In this document: one piece after another, positions 51,494 through 59,282 of the stretch
Position numbering within the stretch: position 1 is the first letter of the stretch
Layout of the letters: every line of letters starts with the position of its first letter
Source of the DNA: Chloroflexota bacterium
GTDB lineage: Bacteria; Chloroflexota; Anaerolineae; CG2-30-64-16
Direction: 5' to 3'
Assembly (NCBI GenBank): GCA_026389845.1
Contig: JAPLHB010000102.1
Location: 1-64,000, forward strand
Length of the DNA: 64,000 nucleotides
Notes under the pieces: generated by a model
Database searches by the model: none
What the model was told of the DNA's origin: nothing
Seen by the model: the letters and a program-made list of their open reading frames with translations, nothing else
Position numbers and translations under genes: made by a program

Positions 51494-54400
51494 ATGTCCG
51501 ACAACTACTGGGACACCTTCCTCCGCGCCGACATCGGTCTGGTGGACCCCGACACCGATGCGATCATCGGCCACGAGGAGGAGCGCCAGGCCCGCAAGCT
51601 GATCATGATTCCTTCCGAGTCCATGGCTCCGCTGGCGGTGCGCCAGGCGCTCGGCTCGGTCTTCAATAACGTGTATGCGGAAGGCTATCCCCCGCTCCGC
51701 ATGACCCGCGAGGACGAGGAGACGATCCTCGACTTCGATCACGAATTGGCCTACTACCGCCGCTATGGCGACCGGCGCTTCTACAAAGGCGTAGACTACG
51801 TCCATTTCGTCGAGACGCTGGCGCAACGCCGCTGCGCGGACACCTTCGCCAACGAGCGCGTGAATTCCGGCGATATTTATGTCAACGTCCAGCCCCTCTC
51901 CGGCGCGGCGGCCAACTTGGCGGTCTACGACACCGTGGTGCAGGCCGGCGACACCGTCATGGGCATGGATCTCTACCAGGGCGGCCACCTGACCCACGGC
52001 TCCGAGTTCAACTTCTCGGGCAAGCGCTACCACGTCATACCCTACGGCGTCAGTAAGACCACGGGCAGGCTGGACTACGACGAGATTCGCGACCTGGCGC
52101 GGCAATACCGGCCCAAGATGCTGATCGCAGGCTTCACGTCGTACACCTGGGCGCCCGACTGGCAGGCGTTCGCGGCCATCGCCCACGAGGTCGGCGCGCT
52201 GCTGCTGGCTGACATCAGCCACCCGGCCGGCATGGTGGCCGCGGGCGCGTTCCCCAGCCCGGTCGGCATCGCAGACGTGATCACCTTCACCACGCACAAG
52301 ACCCTCTGCGGGCCGCGCGGCGCGGTCATCGTGACCAGCGACGAGGAGCTGGCCCGCCGGGTTGACCTGGCCGTTTTCCCCGGCGAGCAGGGCGGCCCGC
52401 ACCCACAGAAGTTCGCCGCAATGTGCGTGATGTTCAAGATCGCCCAGAGCGCGGCGTTCCGGCAGATGATGTTCGGGATCAAGGAAAACGCCGCGGCGTT
52501 GGCCGATGGACTGGTGAAACGCGGCCTGGGACTGGCCTACGGCGGCACCGACAGCCATTTCTGCATGTTGGACCTCAACAGCGTCACCCCCGGTAGGGGC
52601 GATCCCTTGCGGTCGCCCGTGGCAGGGGCGACCGCAAGGGAATCGCCCCTACGCGGCGAACCGGCGGTGCGCATCCTCGACATGGTGGGCATCGTCGCCA
52701 ACAAAAACACCATTCCCGGCGACACGCAGACCGGCCTGGCGATGGGCATCCGCCTGGGCGCGCCCTGGCTCACCCAGCGCGGATTCGGCCCGGCCGAGAT
52801 GGATCAGGTAGCCGGGCTGATCAACAAGACCGTCACCGCCATCCAGCCGTTCAGCTACATCGGCCTATCGGGCGAACTGCCGCGCGGCAAGATAGACCTG
52901 GACACCTTCGAGGAGATCAAGGCAGGCGTGGCCGCGTTGGCCGCGCAGGGCGCGGCGGAGACGGAGGATCAGGGGACGGGGTATCCGCACTATTACGCGC
53001 TCCGCCCCCCGGCCCCCAATCCTGGGGGAGCGACCACCACCCCCCACAGTTGGGGGGAAGGGGGGGCCTTCAAGGCCGCACACGAGAGCGCTATCTTGCT
53101 CGCCCCGCCGGGCGGCCTGGTGCTCGTCACCGGCGAGCGCGCGGAGCCGGCGCTGGCGCAGATCGTCACCTGCGACGTGGCTGGTCTGGCGCCGGGTCGG
53201 ATGCAGAGCGGCTTCATCCTGGATCGGGACGGCGTGCTGCTCGACGACGTGTTCGTGATGCGTCTGCCGCCGGACGAAGGCGGCCGCGACCGCTTCTTCC
53301 TCCGCACCCACACGGAAAATCACGCCCGCGTGATCGCCTGGCTGCGCGGCCTGGGTGACGGCTACACGCTTTTCGACCCCGCAGACCTGTTGGCGAAGGT
53401 TGAAGGCCCGATCATCGTAGAAGACATCTCCCAGCCCCAAACCTCGGAGGTCTTCGTGCCCCTGGTCGTCCATGGCCCGGCCGGCCTCGATATCGTTCAG
53501 GCGGCTCGGCTGTCGGGCGTCTACGTCTTCGCGGGCAGCCACGGCCACGCCGAGCTGGTCGTGCCCGCAGCCCAGGCGCAGATCGTCAGTGAACGGCTGA
53601 TCGCGGCCGGCGCGACGCCAGCCGGCGAGGAGACCTTCCGGGCGCTACGCGCCGACTCCGGTCTGCCCGACTACAGCCAGTTCCGCGGCTTTGGTCTCGG
53701 TTCGGGCCGGCCGACGGGCCTCGATCTCTATCGCAGCGCGGCGCCCTCCCGCTTCGAGCTGCGCAAGCCCTACTTCGTCGGCCAGCAGGTCCTGGCAGAG
53801 GTGCGCAGTTCCTCTCAGTTCCCTCAGTTCCCTGAGTTTCAGTGGATCGAACCCAAGAACGCGCTCCTCAAGCGCACGCCGCTCTACGAATGGCACAAGG
53901 CGCACACCCGGCACGTCATCCCCTTTGCGGGGTGGGAGATGCCCGTCTGGTACACGGGCGTGCTGGACGAGCACAACGCCGTGCGCCGGGCGGCCGGGCT
54001 GTTCGACGTGGCGCACATGGGTGTCTTCGAGGTGAGCGGGCCGCACGCCATCGAGTTCCTCGACCTGGTCTGCACCAACTATCCGCGCTGGTACGCGCCC
54101 GGCGAGAGCTTCTACAGCTATCTGCTCGACCCCGACGGGGTGGTGATTGACGATCTGCTGGTCTACCGCCGCGGTCGCGACCTGTTCCAGATCGTGGTCA
54201 ACGCGTCGAACGCGGACAAGGACTGGGCCTGGCTCAACGCGGTGAACCGCGGCGAAGTGCTGCTCGATCGCGCCCGGTCTGACCTGCGGGTGCTGCGTCC
54301 GGCCACGATTCGCAACCTGAAAGACCCCGCGGCCGGCCCCGACATGCGGGTTGACCTGGCGCTGCAAGGCCCCGCATCGCTGCCCATCCTGCAAAGCCTG

Positions 54401-55159
54401 ACCGACGATGTCCGCCTGCGGGATCGCCTGGGTCGCGTGCGCAAGACGGGGTTGATCGAGTGCGAGCTGGCGGGGTTCGATCTCATCATTGCGCGCACGG
54501 GCTACACGGGCGAGGATATCGGGTATGAGATCTTCGTGCATCCGGATCGGGCTGTAGCGTTCTGGGAGAAGCTGTTGGAGGCGGGGAAGCCGTTCGGGAT
54601 CCAGCCGACCGGGCTAGCCGCGCGCGATAGCACCCGCACCGAGGCAGGGCTGCCGCTCTACGGCCACGAGTTGGCCGGGCCGTTCGACATCGCGCCGACG
54701 GGCGCGGGGTTCTCCGGCTACGTCAAGCTGCACAAGCCCTACTTCATCGGCCGGACCGCGCACATGGCCCGCGAGGTGACGCGCACCCAGCAGATCGTGC
54801 GCTTCCGCATGAACGAGCGCGGCGTCCGCATGCCCAAGACCGGTGACCCAGTCATCAGCAAGAAGGGCCAGGCGATCGGCTACGTGACGAGCGCCGCGGT
54901 GGACGTGGATGGGATCATCCTGGGCCTGGCCTACGTGGGCAGCCGCTACGCCAAACCAGGCGACGAAATAGGGATCTACGCGCTGCCGCCGAAGCCGCTG
55001 GTGGAGAAGCCCAACAAGGCCGATCTGGCCCCGGGCGACAAGGTCAGCCTGCCCGACGCCGCCACGCTGCTATCGCGCTTCCCCACCCCCGCAGAGCGGG
55101 CCCACTGGCGCGGGCGGCCGGTCACGGGCGCGGCGGCCGCGCCCCAGGTCAGCGAGTAA
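51494..55159 (+). CDS. Fused serine hydroxymethyltransferase - degenerate GcvT-like middle domain - aminomethyltransferase (1221 aa)
   Basis: SHMT motifs NVYAEGYP, FTTHKTLCGPRGA; C-terminal GcvT WHKAHTRHVIPFAGWEMPVWY, GYTGEDIGYEIFV, EAGLPLYGHEL. Confidence 0.92.
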   Translation: MSDNYWDTFLRADIGLVDPDTDAIIGHEEERQARKLIMIPSESMAPLAVRQALGSVFNNVYAEGYPPLRMTREDEETILDFDHELAYYRRYGDRRFYKGVDYVHFVETLAQRRCADTFANERVNSGDIYVNVQPLSGAAANLAVYDTVVQAGDTVMGMDLYQGGHLTHGSEFNFSGKRYHVIPYGVSKTTGRLDYDEIRDLARQYRPKMLIAGFTSYTWAPDWQAFAAIAHEVGALLLADISHPAGMVAAGAFPSPVGIADVITFTTHKTLCGPRGAVIVTSDEELARRVDLAVFPGEQGGPHPQKFAAMCVMFKIAQSAAFRQMMFGIKENAAALADGLVKRGLGLAYGGTDSHFCMLDLNSVTPGRGDPLRSPVAGATARESPLRGEPAVRILDMVGIVANKNTIPGDTQTGLAMGIRLGAPWLTQRGFGPAEMDQVAGLINKTVTAIQPFSYIGLSGELPRGKIDLDTFEEIKAGVAALAAQGAAETEDQGTGYPHYYALRPPAPNPGGATTTPHSWGEGGAFKAAHESAILLAPPGGLVLVTGERAEPALAQIVTCDVAGLAPGRMQSGFILDRDGVLLDDVFVMRLPPDEGGRDRFFLRTHTENHARVIAWLRGLGDGYTLFDPADLLAKVEGPIIVEDISQPQTSEVFVPLVVHGPAGLDIVQAARLSGVYVFAGSHGHAELVVPAAQAQIVSERLIAAGATPAGEETFRALRADSGLPDYSQFRGFGLGSGRPTGLDLYRSAAPSRFELRKPYFVGQQVLAEVRSSSQFPQFPEFQWIEPKNALLKRTPLYEWHKAHTRHVIPFAGWEMPVWYTGVLDEHNAVRRAAGLFDVAHMGVFEVSGPHAIEFLDLVCTNYPRWYAPGESFYSYLLDPDGVVIDDLLVYRRGRDLFQIVVNASNADKDWAWLNAVNRGEVLLDRARSDLRVLRPATIRNLKDPAAGPDMRVDLALQGPASLPILQSLTDDVRLRDRLGRVRKTGLIECELAGFDLIIARTGYTGEDIGYEIFVHPDRAVAFWEKLLEAGKPFGIQPTGLAARDSTRTEAGLPLYGHELAGPFDIAPTGAGFSGYVKLHKPYFIGRTAHMAREVTRTQQIVRFRMNERGVRMPKTGDPVISKKGQAIGYVTSAAVDVDGIILGLAYVGSRYAKPGDEIGIYALPPKPLVEKPNKADLAPGDKVSLPDAATLLSRFPTPAERAHWRGRPVTGAAAAPQVSE
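52593..52652. repeat. 60-bp palindromic repeat inserted in frame (GRGDPLRSPVAGATARESPLR)
   Basis: GTAGGGGCGATCCCTTGCGGTCGCCC GTGGCA GGGGCGACCGCAAGGGAATCGCCCCTAC. Confidence 0.95.
53000..53068. repeat. C/G-tract palindromic repeat in the SHMT-GcvT linker (PPAPNPGGATTTPHSWGEGG)
   Basis: cgccccccggcccccaatcctgggggagcgaccaccaccccccacagttggggggaaggggggg. Confidence 0.88.
53805..53842. repeat. 9-bp tandem repeat (CAGTTCCCT) in linker (SQFPQFPEFQ)
   Basis: Same unit as the array at 59200-59280. Confidence 0.9.
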
Positions 55160-55169
55160 GCGAATCGCG

Positions 55170-55203
55170 TGACGTACGACGCACCTCGGAGGTGCGTCGT
55201 ACG
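55170..55203. repeat. Intergenic palindrome ACGTACGACGCACCTCGGAGGTGCGTCGTACGT
   Basis: About 16-bp arms; 10 nt after the SHMT-GcvT stop. Confidence 0.92.
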
Positions 55204-55282
55204 TGATCTCTGCCACGGCCAAGAATCGCCAAGAAGCAGAACGCCAACCAACAAGGGCCTCCACTAAGCTCCCCGTGCAAAC

Positions 55283-55326
55283 TTGACTTCCCAGCACGAT
55301 CGTGATAATATGTCGCCATACGACAT
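55283..55326 (+). promoter_or_regulatory. PadR promoter and candidate operator: TTGACT-N17-TAATAT followed by ATGTCG-CCATA-CGACAT
   Basis: -35 at 55283-55288, -10 at 55306-55311, inverted repeat 55310-55326. Confidence 0.6.
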
Positions 55327-55359
55327 GTTGTGAAACTACTTATCAATCGAGTCCGTCCG

Positions 55360-55713
55360 ATGAAGCATTCACCAAGCGAACCGGAGTTCCCGCTCACCGA
55401 AACCACATTCACGATCCTGCTAAGCCTCGCGCCCCGGCCTAAGCACGGGTACGCCATCATGAAAGACGTGGAGGAGTTGAGCGATGGCCGCGTCATGCTG
55501 ACTACGGGTACCTTGTACGGCGCGCTCAAGCGATTGCTGGAGCAAGGCTGGATCACGCGAGTCGCCCAGGACGATGAGGCGGAAACGGGCCGGCCGCGCA
55601 AGACCTACGCGCTGACCGACCTGGGGCACCGGATGCTGAACGCCGAGATCGGCCGCATGAAGACGCTGGTCGCGGTCGCCGGCCTGCGCACCGTCCAAGG
55701 AGGCGCGTTGTGA
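55360..55713 (+). CDS. PadR-family transcriptional regulator
   Basis: FTILLSLAPRPKHGYAIMKDVEELSDGRVMLTTGTLYGALKRLLEQGWI. Confidence 0.93.
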   Translation: MKHSPSEPEFPLTETTFTILLSLAPRPKHGYAIMKDVEELSDGRVMLTTGTLYGALKRLLEQGWITRVAQDDEAETGRPRKTYALTDLGHRMLNAEIGRMKTLVAVAGLRTVQGGAL

Positions 55714-56591
55714 GCATCGTACAGCTCGGCGCCGACCTCTACGGCTCACTGATCCGGCTCTACCCGCGGCCCTTCCGCCAGGAGTTCGAGGAGGAGATGC
55801 GGCTCGTATTCTCGATGGCGCTGGTCACCATAGCCCGCGAGGGACCTGGCCGCGTGGCGCCGTTGGTGCTGTGCGAGCTCCGCGACCTGTTGCTCGGCGC
55901 GGCCCAACAGCATCTTCTCGGACGACGAGACGGCCGGCATAGTGCTGAGGGCAGTCACCGCTTCGCGACGTGGGGCGCCTGGGGGTTCGGCAGCGCCTTC
56001 GCGCTCGGCAGCCTGGTGCGATGGATCGCCGCGACATGGTCGCGCGGACAGCCGAACACACATGTCGCTCCCCTCCTGGTCGTGGCCGCGTGGTATCTGT
56101 TTGCCGGAGCCATCGGCGGCGCGATCTTCGGGATGGCCTTTCGATCACGAGATAAGGTCCTGGCCTCGGCCGCAGTGGGCGCGCTGAGCTTCGGTCTCAG
56201 TGTGATTGTGCTGGGCGGCCTGCCGCGGGTCGGCGCCCTGTCCGTGATGATGCCCTGGATCGCCGCTCCCGCGATCGTCGGCGGGCTGGCAGGCACGCTC
56301 GCCGCGCCCACTGGCCGAAGGCGGCAGTCGGCCCTGGGCCTGACGTTGGCCGGGACCTGGACGTGCGGGGTCGGCGTCCTGGGTGGGTTCGCTGTAACCG
56401 TGCTCGTGTGGGGGGCAGCCCAGGCCGTTTGGTCCTACCATGCCGCGTCACTGCTCGACGGCCGAGGGCTGAGCGTGATCGCGTCCGGGCTGCCACACCT
56501 GGTCAACGTTGTGACAGGGCTTCTCAGTGGCGCGCTGCTGGGAAGGGCGATGGAGCGGAAGCTCCGAACAAGCGAGGCGGTCTTTCAGTGA
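55710..56591 (+). CDS. Multi-TM membrane protein with permease-prefix-like N-terminus
   Basis: LYPRPFRQEFEEEMRLVFSMAL; hydrophobic helices; 4-nt overlap with padR. Confidence 0.75.
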   Translation: MSIVQLGADLYGSLIRLYPRPFRQEFEEEMRLVFSMALVTIAREGPGRVAPLVLCELRDLLLGAAQQHLLGRRDGRHSAEGSHRFATWGAWGFGSAFALGSLVRWIAATWSRGQPNTHVAPLLVVAAWYLFAGAIGGAIFGMAFRSRDKVLASAAVGALSFGLSVIVLGGLPRVGALSVMMPWIAAPAIVGGLAGTLAAPTGRRRQSALGLTLAGTWTCGVGVLGGFAVTVLVWGAAQAVWSYHAASLLDGRGLSVIASGLPHLVNVVTGLLSGALLGRAMERKLRTSEAVFQ

Positions 56592-56610: not shown

Positions 56611-58620
56611 ATGGATCAGACCATTGCTGTCGCACCCGCGACAGCAGCAGACTCCATCACGACGCCCGGGCAACCGGAACAGTACACGTTTAGCCGCGTG
56701 CTGACAATCTGGCTCGCGGCGACCTTGCCCATGGCCGTCCTGGCGTGGGGGCTCGCGCCGCTTCTCGTCGGCCGCGTCCCCCTCCCGTCGGCCCTCACCT
56801 TCTCACTCCTGATGATGGTCGGCCTGGCGTGGCAAGCCGCGCTGGGCCTGTGGATCGTCCGCCGGGAGGAGGGCGGCCTGAGTTGGGCTGCGTTCCGCCG
56901 GCGGACGTGGCTGGTCGCGCCGCGCCACCCGCGTACAGACCAGGTGCGACGCCGGTCGTTCGCCTGGGTCTTGCCGGGCTGGCTCATCGGCTTCCTGGTT
57001 TTGACCTTCGGCGTATTCCTCGGCAACACCTTCCTCCGGGACGCGGTCCTCATACGGCTGCTCTCCTGGACGTGGCTCCCGCCCTTCCCATCGCCGGGCT
57101 ACGCGCAGGTCACGGAGCTGGTCAGCCCCGAGTTCGCCGGTCGCTGGTGGCTGCTCGTCCTGGTCGCGGTCGCGTGGGTCCTCTCCCTGGCGGAAGAACT
57201 GATCTTCCGGGGCGTCCTGTTGCCGAAGATGGCCGGCGCCTTTGGCCGGTGGGACTGGGTCGCCAACGCCGGGCTGTACGGCCTCTACCACGTCCACAAG
57301 CCGTGGATGATCCCCTTTCGGTTCCTCTACGGGCTGGTGCTGGCCGGGCCGACTAGGCGCTTCCGCAGCAGTTGGATAGCGGTCGGCATCCGCGGGATAG
57401 AAGGAATTGGGCTGCTGGCGCTCGCGCTGGTGGGGATCATGCTGCCATCCCTGACGACCACGCCGATCCCCGATCTGGCGCAGCCACACGTGACGGCCAG
57501 CCCTCAGCCGCTCGGCTGGTACCGGGGGCCGCTCACCGCGCTCCCCAGGCACACGCCCGGCGCGACGGGGCCTTTCGAGCTAGACCTGCGGGGGTACGAT
57601 CTCTCCGCATTGGATCTCAGGGACGCAACCGATGATCTGCTCTACGTCACCTTCGACAGCCGCACCCTCTGGCCGCCGGCCGAAAGGATGCCCACCGGTT
57701 TTGATCTGGAGCAAATCCTGGCGCTGGGCAGGAACCCTGGGCTGGGCCTGCGCAGTCTTCACGACCGCGGGATCACCGGCCGCGGGGTCGGCATCGCTAT
57801 CGTGGATCAGGCGCTCCTGGTCGAGCACCAGGAATATGCGGGGCAGTTGCGCTGGTACGAGCAGACGAACGACCTGACCATCGAGCCGGCCTCGATGCAC
57901 GGCCCCGCGGTGGCTTCCATCGCGGTCGGCAAGACGGTGGGGGTCGCGCCCGAAGCCGACCTGTATTTCATCGCTGCGACTTTCGATCTCCGCTCCTTGC
58001 CGGCACGCTGTCACAGCGACGCGCAGGCGGTGCGCCGCATCCTGCAGATTAACAGCCAACTGCCGGAGAATCGCAAAATCAGGGTCATTTCCATTTCGAG
58101 CGGCTGGCTGCCCGAGTGGCCTGGATACGCCGACATCGCGGCCGCCCTGGCGGAGGCGAAGGCGGCCGGGCTGCTGGTGATCTGCTCCAGTTGCAACCAG
58201 GCGGATGGCATGTACTTCCACGGCCTGGGCCGGCCGCCGACGGCTGACCCGGATCGGTTCGAGGCGTACGAACCAGGGCTGTTCTGGGCCGGCGACTTCG
58301 CCGAGAATGGCCTGTCGTCCGACCGACTGCTGGTCACCATGGACTCACGCACCCTGGCCAGCCCAACCGGCAAGGACGAGTACGTCTTCTACCGGGAAGG
58401 GGGCTGGAGTTGGGCCATCCCATACATCGCGGGGGCCTACGCGCTCGCCGCGCAGGTGGATCCAACCATCACCCCCGACCGCTTCTGGGCGCTGGCCCTC
58501 CAGACGGGCCGGACGATCGAGATCGGCGGTGGGGCGCAGAAACAGAGCCTCGGCAAGATCCTCGATCCGGTCGCGCTGATTGCAGCACTACAGAACCCAT
58601 CCGCCGCTCCGAGTCGCTGA
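56611..58620 (+). CDS. Membrane CPBP/CAAX-protease-like domain fused to a C-terminal subtilisin-like (S8) serine protease domain
   Basis: N-terminus AEELIFRGVLLPKM and YHVHKP; C-terminus IAIVDQ (Asp), HGPAVASI (His), SSCNQADG (Asn), GWSWAIPYIAGAYAL (Ser). Confidence 0.75.
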   Translation: MDQTIAVAPATAADSITTPGQPEQYTFSRVLTIWLAATLPMAVLAWGLAPLLVGRVPLPSALTFSLLMMVGLAWQAALGLWIVRREEGGLSWAAFRRRTWLVAPRHPRTDQVRRRSFAWVLPGWLIGFLVLTFGVFLGNTFLRDAVLIRLLSWTWLPPFPSPGYAQVTELVSPEFAGRWWLLVLVAVAWVLSLAEELIFRGVLLPKMAGAFGRWDWVANAGLYGLYHVHKPWMIPFRFLYGLVLAGPTRRFRSSWIAVGIRGIEGIGLLALALVGIMLPSLTTTPIPDLAQPHVTASPQPLGWYRGPLTALPRHTPGATGPFELDLRGYDLSALDLRDATDDLLYVTFDSRTLWPPAERMPTGFDLEQILALGRNPGLGLRSLHDRGITGRGVGIAIVDQALLVEHQEYAGQLRWYEQTNDLTIEPASMHGPAVASIAVGKTVGVAPEADLYFIAATFDLRSLPARCHSDAQAVRRILQINSQLPENRKIRVISISSGWLPEWPGYADIAAALAEAKAAGLLVICSSCNQADGMYFHGLGRPPTADPDRFEAYEPGLFWAGDFAENGLSSDRLLVTMDSRTLASPTGKDEYVFYREGGWSWAIPYIAGAYALAAQVDPTITPDRFWALALQTGRTIEIGGGAQKQSLGKILDPVALIAALQNPSAAPSR

Positions 58621-58765: not shown

Positions 58766-59107
58766 GGCAAATCGGTCTGTCGGGAGCTGCTGGAGGAGCA
58801 CGCCGATGTAATCCTCACCGACCCCTACGCCCTGGAAAACGCCGCAGAGGACCTGGGCGAGCAGGCCGCGCACGTGAGCTTCGAGTTAGACCCCTATGCC
58901 GCGGCCGCGGGCAGCCACGCGATCGCGGTCGTCACCAAATGGCGGCAGTTCGCGGAGCTTGACTACGAGACAATCTACCGCTCGATGGTCAAGCCGGCGT
59001 TCATCTTCGACGGCCGGAACCTCCTCGACCGGCGCAAGCTGTTTGGGATGGGGTTCAACGTCTATGCAATCGGCAAGCCGCCGCTGACGCACTTCGGGGC
59101 CGCTTGA
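58766..59107 (+). pseudogene. C-terminal remnant of a UDP-glucose 6-dehydrogenase
   Basis: VCRELLEEHADVILTDPYALENA...AIAVVTKWRQFAELDYETIYRSMVKPAFIFDGRNLLDRRKLFGMGFNVYAIGKP with no N-terminal NAD domain upstream. Confidence 0.82.
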
Positions 59108-59151: not shown

Positions 59152-59200
59152 GCGCTAAAACACGGAGCCTCCCGCAAGTCTACAACCCGCGGGAGGCTCC
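59152..59200 (-). terminator. Candidate intrinsic terminator of the gcv operon
   Basis: 12-bp stem GGAGCCTCCCGC/GCGGGAGGCTCC followed on the minus strand by GTGTTTTAG. Confidence 0.5.
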
Positions 59201-59282
59201 CTCAGTTCCCCCAAGTTCCCTCAGTTCCCCCAAGTTCCCTCAGTTCCCTCAGTTCCCTCAGTTCCCCCAAGTTCCCTCAGTC
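59200..59282. repeat. 9-bp tandem repeat array (CTCAGTTCC / CCAAGTTCC)
   Basis: About nine units after the gcvPB stop. Confidence 0.93.

Follow-up and report, generated by a model that had tools for sequence, protein, structure and literature searches.

The window, the 64,000-nucleotide stretch of DNA from an uncultured Anaerolineae bacterium (Chloroflexota) that was analysed as a whole, carries a gene in which a CPBP-type membrane domain and a subtilisin-like (S8) domain share one open reading frame. As the initial annotation recorded, padR and a gene for a multi-transmembrane (multi-TM) protein precede it. The locus comprises:

55283 to 55311, plus strand: promoter-like site TTGACT-17-TAATAT, its second hexamer preceded by TG; a consensus match only
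55310 to 55326, no strand: palindrome ATGTCG-N5-CGACAT, which overlaps the -10 of the promoter-like site and is a candidate PadR operator
55360 to 55713, plus strand: padR, PadR-family regulator (PF03551, E = 2.6e-19); ATG start, GTG at 55330 possible
55710 to 56591, plus strand: gene 2, multi-TM protein; GTG start and an N-terminal segment of the LYPRPFRQEFEEEM type
56611 to 58620, plus strand: CPBP-S8 fusion gene, 669 aa plus stop, a single uninterrupted ORF from 56611 to 58617

Gene 2 matches no family in Pfam or NCBIfam. Of the 4-nt overlaps described earlier, the one between padR and gene 2 is there (55710 to 55713); the second is absent because 19 intergenic bases separate the stop of gene 2 (56591) from the ATG of the fusion (56611). 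A GTG start at 56527 would give the fusion gene a longer overlap with gene 2, and is unlikely because unfused relatives align to the ATG at 56611.

Upstream of padR lies a 1221-aa ORF (51494 to 55159, plus strand) whose single chain unites serine hydroxymethyltransferase (PF00464) with glycine-cleavage T protein (PF01571). Just 3' of this SHMT-GcvT gene, an inverted repeat (55172 to 55204) has perfectly matched 16-nt arms separated by 1 nt and is a possible terminator without a T run. Beyond the fusion gene, a short plus-strand ORF (58874 to 59107) corresponds to positions 57 to 103 of the 103 of PF03720, the C-terminal UDP-binding domain of UDP-glucose/GDP-mannose dehydrogenase, and resembles a gene remnant; short direct repeats of the 'cagttccctcagttcccccaagttccct' type are found at about 59200 to 59275.

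Is the locus controlled by PadR, as was supposed at the outset? A consensus scan found three promoter-like sites where 0.4 were expected in shuffles, and the palindrome, for which 0.11 matches were expected by chance, is the sole match in the window when one mismatch is allowed. PadR may regulate its own gene through this palindrome, and, given the promoter-like site and the palindrome, control of the locus is plausible in the window, where expression of the fusion may follow PadR. Such control is not conserved with the fusion, however. The link to PadR is weak because padR and a LYPRPFRQEF-type gene 2 occur together without the fusion in two other genomes (G404 and G417), and because other fusions occur without padR, none being seen when the flanks of L088, L089 and L094 were inspected by eye (the L094 locus is close to the end of its contig).

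Both halves of the fusion protein score above the Pfam cut-offs, which bears out the reading of the ORF as a CPBP-type domain joined to a subtilisin-like domain. The Rce1-like/CPBP family PF02517 matches residues 179 to 261 (E = 7.4e-11, 42.6 bits versus a cut-off of 22.4), and Peptidase_S8, PF00082, matches residues 390 to 531 (E = 1.4e-12, 48 bits versus a cut-off of 21.8). The motifs that had been picked out, AEELIFRG, YHVHKP, IVDQ, MHGPAV and GWSWAIPYIAG, are all present. The protein divides as follows:

56611 to 57441, plus strand: CPBP-derived membrane half, residues 1 to 277, with seven helices in the full-length AF2 model
57442 to 57519, plus strand: junction or linker, between residue 277, where TM7 ends, and the start of S8-family homology (about 292 to 304)
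57520 to 58617, plus strand: S8 (subtilase-like) half with a conserved N-terminal extension, from PF00082, AF2 and Foldseek

In the linker the AF2 pLDDT is low at residues 280 to 283, and a lipoprotein relative (L038) can be aligned from residue 292. The architecture is new and its parts are known; we found no earlier report of a CPBP-S8 fusion in the open-access literature, which is weak evidence of absence.

A search for the fusion elsewhere, proposed in the initial annotation, found at least three further full-length fusions in Chloroflexota and one decayed remnant; these counts come from a named-genome scan of at least 80 loci and are lower bounds. The full-length proteins are of 654 aa in Chloroflexota USDE_metabat.60 (G686/L089), 652 aa in Anaerolineae Zod_Metabat.387 (L088) and about 650 aa in Anaerolineae Zod_Metabat.487 (L094), with both domains above the Pfam cut-offs in each; the existence of these three rules out an assembly chimera. 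A named-genome scan with a single protein as the query gave no match. The remnant comes from G403, whose family is also that of the genome analysed here, and consists of residues 1 to 66 joined in frame to about 430 to 527, followed by a frame change and about 619 to 669. It lies downstream of the same SHMT-GcvT gene (L073:2112-5861), at a locus that also retains the end of gene 2, and this shared position indicates a shared ancestral fusion. On the pieces common to the window fusion and the remnant, dN/dS is about 0.27 by NG86 (0.28 in the CPBP piece, 0.26 in the S8 pieces), a value that implies purifying selection on the gene over much of the divergence between the two.

What evolutionary step accounts for the fusion? 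In the CPBP tree the four intact fusions form one clade (support 100/100), to which the unfused L039 and L160 are sister (98/100). The fusions also group in the S8 tree, in 97% of bootstrap trees and with an SH-aLRT of only 43 (support 95/43). A single fusion event in Chloroflexota is the simplest reading of these trees. The CPBP membrane protein would thus have been joined once to a subtilase that is elsewhere secreted or lipid-anchored. In the sampled whole genomes the halves are mostly separate, as unfused CPBP proteins some 270 residues long (L039, L040, L041, L042 twice, and L044) and unfused S8 proteins (L038 and L043). As for unfused CPBP and S8 genes standing side by side, in the manner of a Rosetta stone, the sole case is in Sedimentibacter (L113), which we left uncounted because CPBP genes are common; a second neighbour taken by eye for CPBP, L085, is a methyltransferase by Pfam.

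Does the membrane half still act as a protease? Three positions are relevant:

57193 to 57210, plus strand: CPBP motif 1, E195-E196-x3-R200, conserved
57289 to 57291, plus strand: CPBP motif-2 His227, retained in the window fusion
57391 to 57393, plus strand: Arg261, at the CPBP motif-3 His position by alignment

In CPBP proteases, the motif-1 Glu with a His activates the catalytic water, and the oxyanion hole is assigned to the HxxxN motif, its His included (PMC11980579). The EExxxR of motif 1 is retained in all four fusions. The window fusion and L089 have the motif-2 His, and Tyr takes its place in L088 and L094. At the motif-3 position the four fusions all have Arg, versus His in 24 of 24 unfused relatives; In the window fusion HxxxN has Arg261 for His and Gly for Asn, and the Asn is likewise missing from the nearest unfused relatives. 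The initial annotation was therefore right to find no third CPBP motif at GIRGIEG. The membrane scaffold is retained while the catalytic set is incomplete, and since a key active-site His has been lost, the CPBP half is most likely now an anchor only, which no longer cleaves peptides itself. The motif-1 Glu pair, and the motif-2 His where it is kept, mean that residual or altered activity may persist in the fusions.

These residues also bear on the proposal of a two-step protease, in which the S8 half would cut a membrane substrate outside and the CPBP half would then cut it within the membrane. The proposal draws on the membership of both halves in protease families, on the universal EExxxR and on the motif-2 His of two fusions, yet it has to accommodate the loss of that His in the other two and, in all four, of a His that published work assigns to the CPBP oxyanion hole; we regard it as quite improbable.

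In the full-length AF2 model the helices of this half span residues 27-52, 60-87, 117-150, 180-207, 212-229, 231-245 and 254-277. Modelled alone, the half is poor (pLDDT 47), and searching the PDB sequences with the CPBP profile gave no match.

The S8 half presents a different picture, as its catalytic residues are near-invariant among 81 aligned relatives:

57805 to 57807, plus strand: catalytic Asp399, in 80 of 81 relatives, ending strand 394-399
57898 to 57900, plus strand: catalytic His430, in 80 of 81, at the N-terminus of helix 430-439
58195 to 58197, plus strand: Asn529, the oxyanion Asn of the initial annotation, Asn in 4 of 81
58348 to 58350, plus strand: Arg580 within MDSRT, a hallmark of the family, in 79 of 81
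58408 to 58410, plus strand: catalytic Ser600, in 79 of 81, at the N-terminus of helix 599-616

The D-H-S residues proposed for this half stand up, and follow in the S8 order; H406 and N481 are, with R580, further near-invariant residues. The oxyanion Asn read from SSCNQ is not confirmed: Asn529 does lie in the aligned column, but with Asn there in so few relatives it looks like a local coincidence rather than a family feature. Structure prediction, which had been suggested, also favours a subtilase. The full-length AF2 model, built with 38 sequences, has a mean pLDDT of 81.9, with most S8 blocks above 90, and its S8 half takes a subtilisin fold that matches PDB subtilisins with a Foldseek probability of 1.00 and, among the best 50 rows, a target TM-score of up to 0.71 (1ndu). 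In secondary structure D399, H430 and S600 of this model resemble their counterparts in subtilases, the Asp at a strand end and the His and Ser at helix N-termini. NCBIfam S8 models gave no match to this half.

Conservation and modelled fold together suggest that the S8 half is the active protease of the fusion. One might think, from the lost CPBP histidines, the lack of a conserved oxyanion Asn in the S8 family and the broken orthologue in G403, that the protein is a pseudo-enzyme in both halves, serving in binding or as a scaffold, or simply decaying. A near-invariant triad, kept across many phyla, would be unexpected in a non-catalytic domain, and the dN/dS given above also argues against this explanation, which we hold to be very unlikely. 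Because the S8 family does not have the usual oxyanion Asn, proteolysis by this half may nevertheless be weak or out of the ordinary.

On which side of the membrane would the protease lie? The loop at 88-116 has eight K/R and one D/E, that at 246-253 has three K/R, and by the AF2 helices both are on the same side. Seven helices, with the positively charged loops inside, lead to a predicted topology with the N-terminus inside and the C-terminal S8 domain outside. This placement agrees with the signals of the unfused S8 relatives. Most have one hydrophobic N-terminal segment and many a lipobox-like Cys (LSAC in L038), and they are thus exported, so that the domain works outside the cell. The exported subfamily is spread over Chloroflexota, Planctomycetota, Bacillota, Verrucomicrobiota and others, and we found no named family for S8 proteins of this kind, with an intact triad and no usual oxyanion Asn.

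The reading that we favour, and consider reasonably likely, is of a subtilase tethered to the membrane on its extracytoplasmic side by an anchor that derives from CPBP and is probably inactive. The CPBP half would keep the S8 half facing outwards, where the latter probably cleaves envelope or membrane-protein substrates close to the membrane. A membrane-tethered subtilisin was among the earlier suggestions, and the intact triad, the modelled fold, the predicted outside C-terminus and the lipoprotein and secreted relatives all speak for it; the further suggestion of bacteriocin or signal-peptide processing is unsupported.

The genes beside the S8 relatives raise the question of signalling. Among 48 neighbours of S8 genes, mostly on the same strand and within 250 nt, sigma-70 proteins account for six and BlaR1-type M56 for five; these counts are leads rather than enrichment statistics, because a few neighbours were added once clusters had been noticed. 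BlaI adjoins BlaR1 in the Clostridium neighbourhoods, and in four of these (L096, L101, L103 and L110) the S8 gene lies about 100 to 110 nt downstream of the BlaI/BlaR1-like pair, a near-constant spacing. At L072:1804-4476 an ECF sigma gene has a 4-nt overlap with the gene for a one-TM protein that has a zinc-finger-like N-terminus, a PPC domain and a C-terminal S8 domain. Pfam confirms the sigma factor, PPC and S8, and finds no anti-sigma domain in the S8 protein, which nonetheless resembles an anti-sigma factor that carries a protease domain on the outside. In an Aminicenantes genome (L104:3096-5279) the same S8 subfamily is fused to an N-terminus that is multi-TM and to a region weakly similar to PDZ/Tricorn-C1.

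Could the fusion then be a signalling protein, in which the S8 half serves chiefly for sensing, or cleaves a membrane regulator as a site-1-like protease that is itself regulated? The ECF sigma and BlaI/BlaR1 neighbours are what such a role would draw on, as is the fusion L088, whose gene is downstream of a histidine kinase gene. The contexts are diverse, however, most S8 genes are without such neighbours, and no sigma or kinase gene adjoins the fusion in the window, so that we find a signalling role improbable. What the fusion does highlight is a widespread exported S8 subfamily, sometimes beside ECF sigma or BlaI/BlaR1 genes.

How does the tethered subtilase compare with known systems? With S8 subtilases at large (PF00082; B. 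lentus subtilisin, TKS 9ues/3afg) it shares the D-H-S order and, in the model, the subtilisin fold. Its subfamily differs from them in having no conserved oxyanion Asn, in the hallmarks IIDQ, MHGxAV, MDSRT and GGxSWxxPY, and in a conserved N-terminal extension of about 90 residues. The unfused lipoproteins and secreted proteins (L075/L038, Clostridium L096, Tissierella L111 and others) are related over the whole S8 half, at up to about 60% identity, and have a signal peptide or lipid as the anchor where the fusion has the CPBP body. Mycosin MycP1 and the site-1 protease S1P are both among the Foldseek matches to the S8 model. They are subtilases held to the membrane on its non-cytoplasmic side, each by a single TM helix, unlike the protease-derived multi-TM domain of the fusion.

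On the membrane side, the fusion resembles CPBP/Rce1-like proteins (PF02517) in its Pfam score, EExxxR, the motif-2 His of the window protein and its multi-TM half, and every fusion departs from them in the Arg at motif 3 and in the C-terminal subtilase half. Two unrelated protease families have here been joined in a fusion that recurs, has been under selection and has one half apparently disarmed, which makes it a natural experiment on what a CPBP body can do without catalysis. The iRhoms, pseudoproteases of the rhomboid superfamily, are described as intramembrane protease scaffolds in which catalysis was lost and new domains were acquired (PMC6451368); they are eukaryotic and of an unrelated fold, and the likeness is one of analogy only. 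By that analogy the CPBP body might be an iRhom-like scaffold, whose old active-site groove would bind TM substrates and present their outer juxtamembrane segments to the subtilase. We consider this doubtful, if conceivable; were it true, bacteria would have in this fusion a site-1-type membrane protease made of a single chain, and Arg261 would be the mark of the catalysis that was lost.
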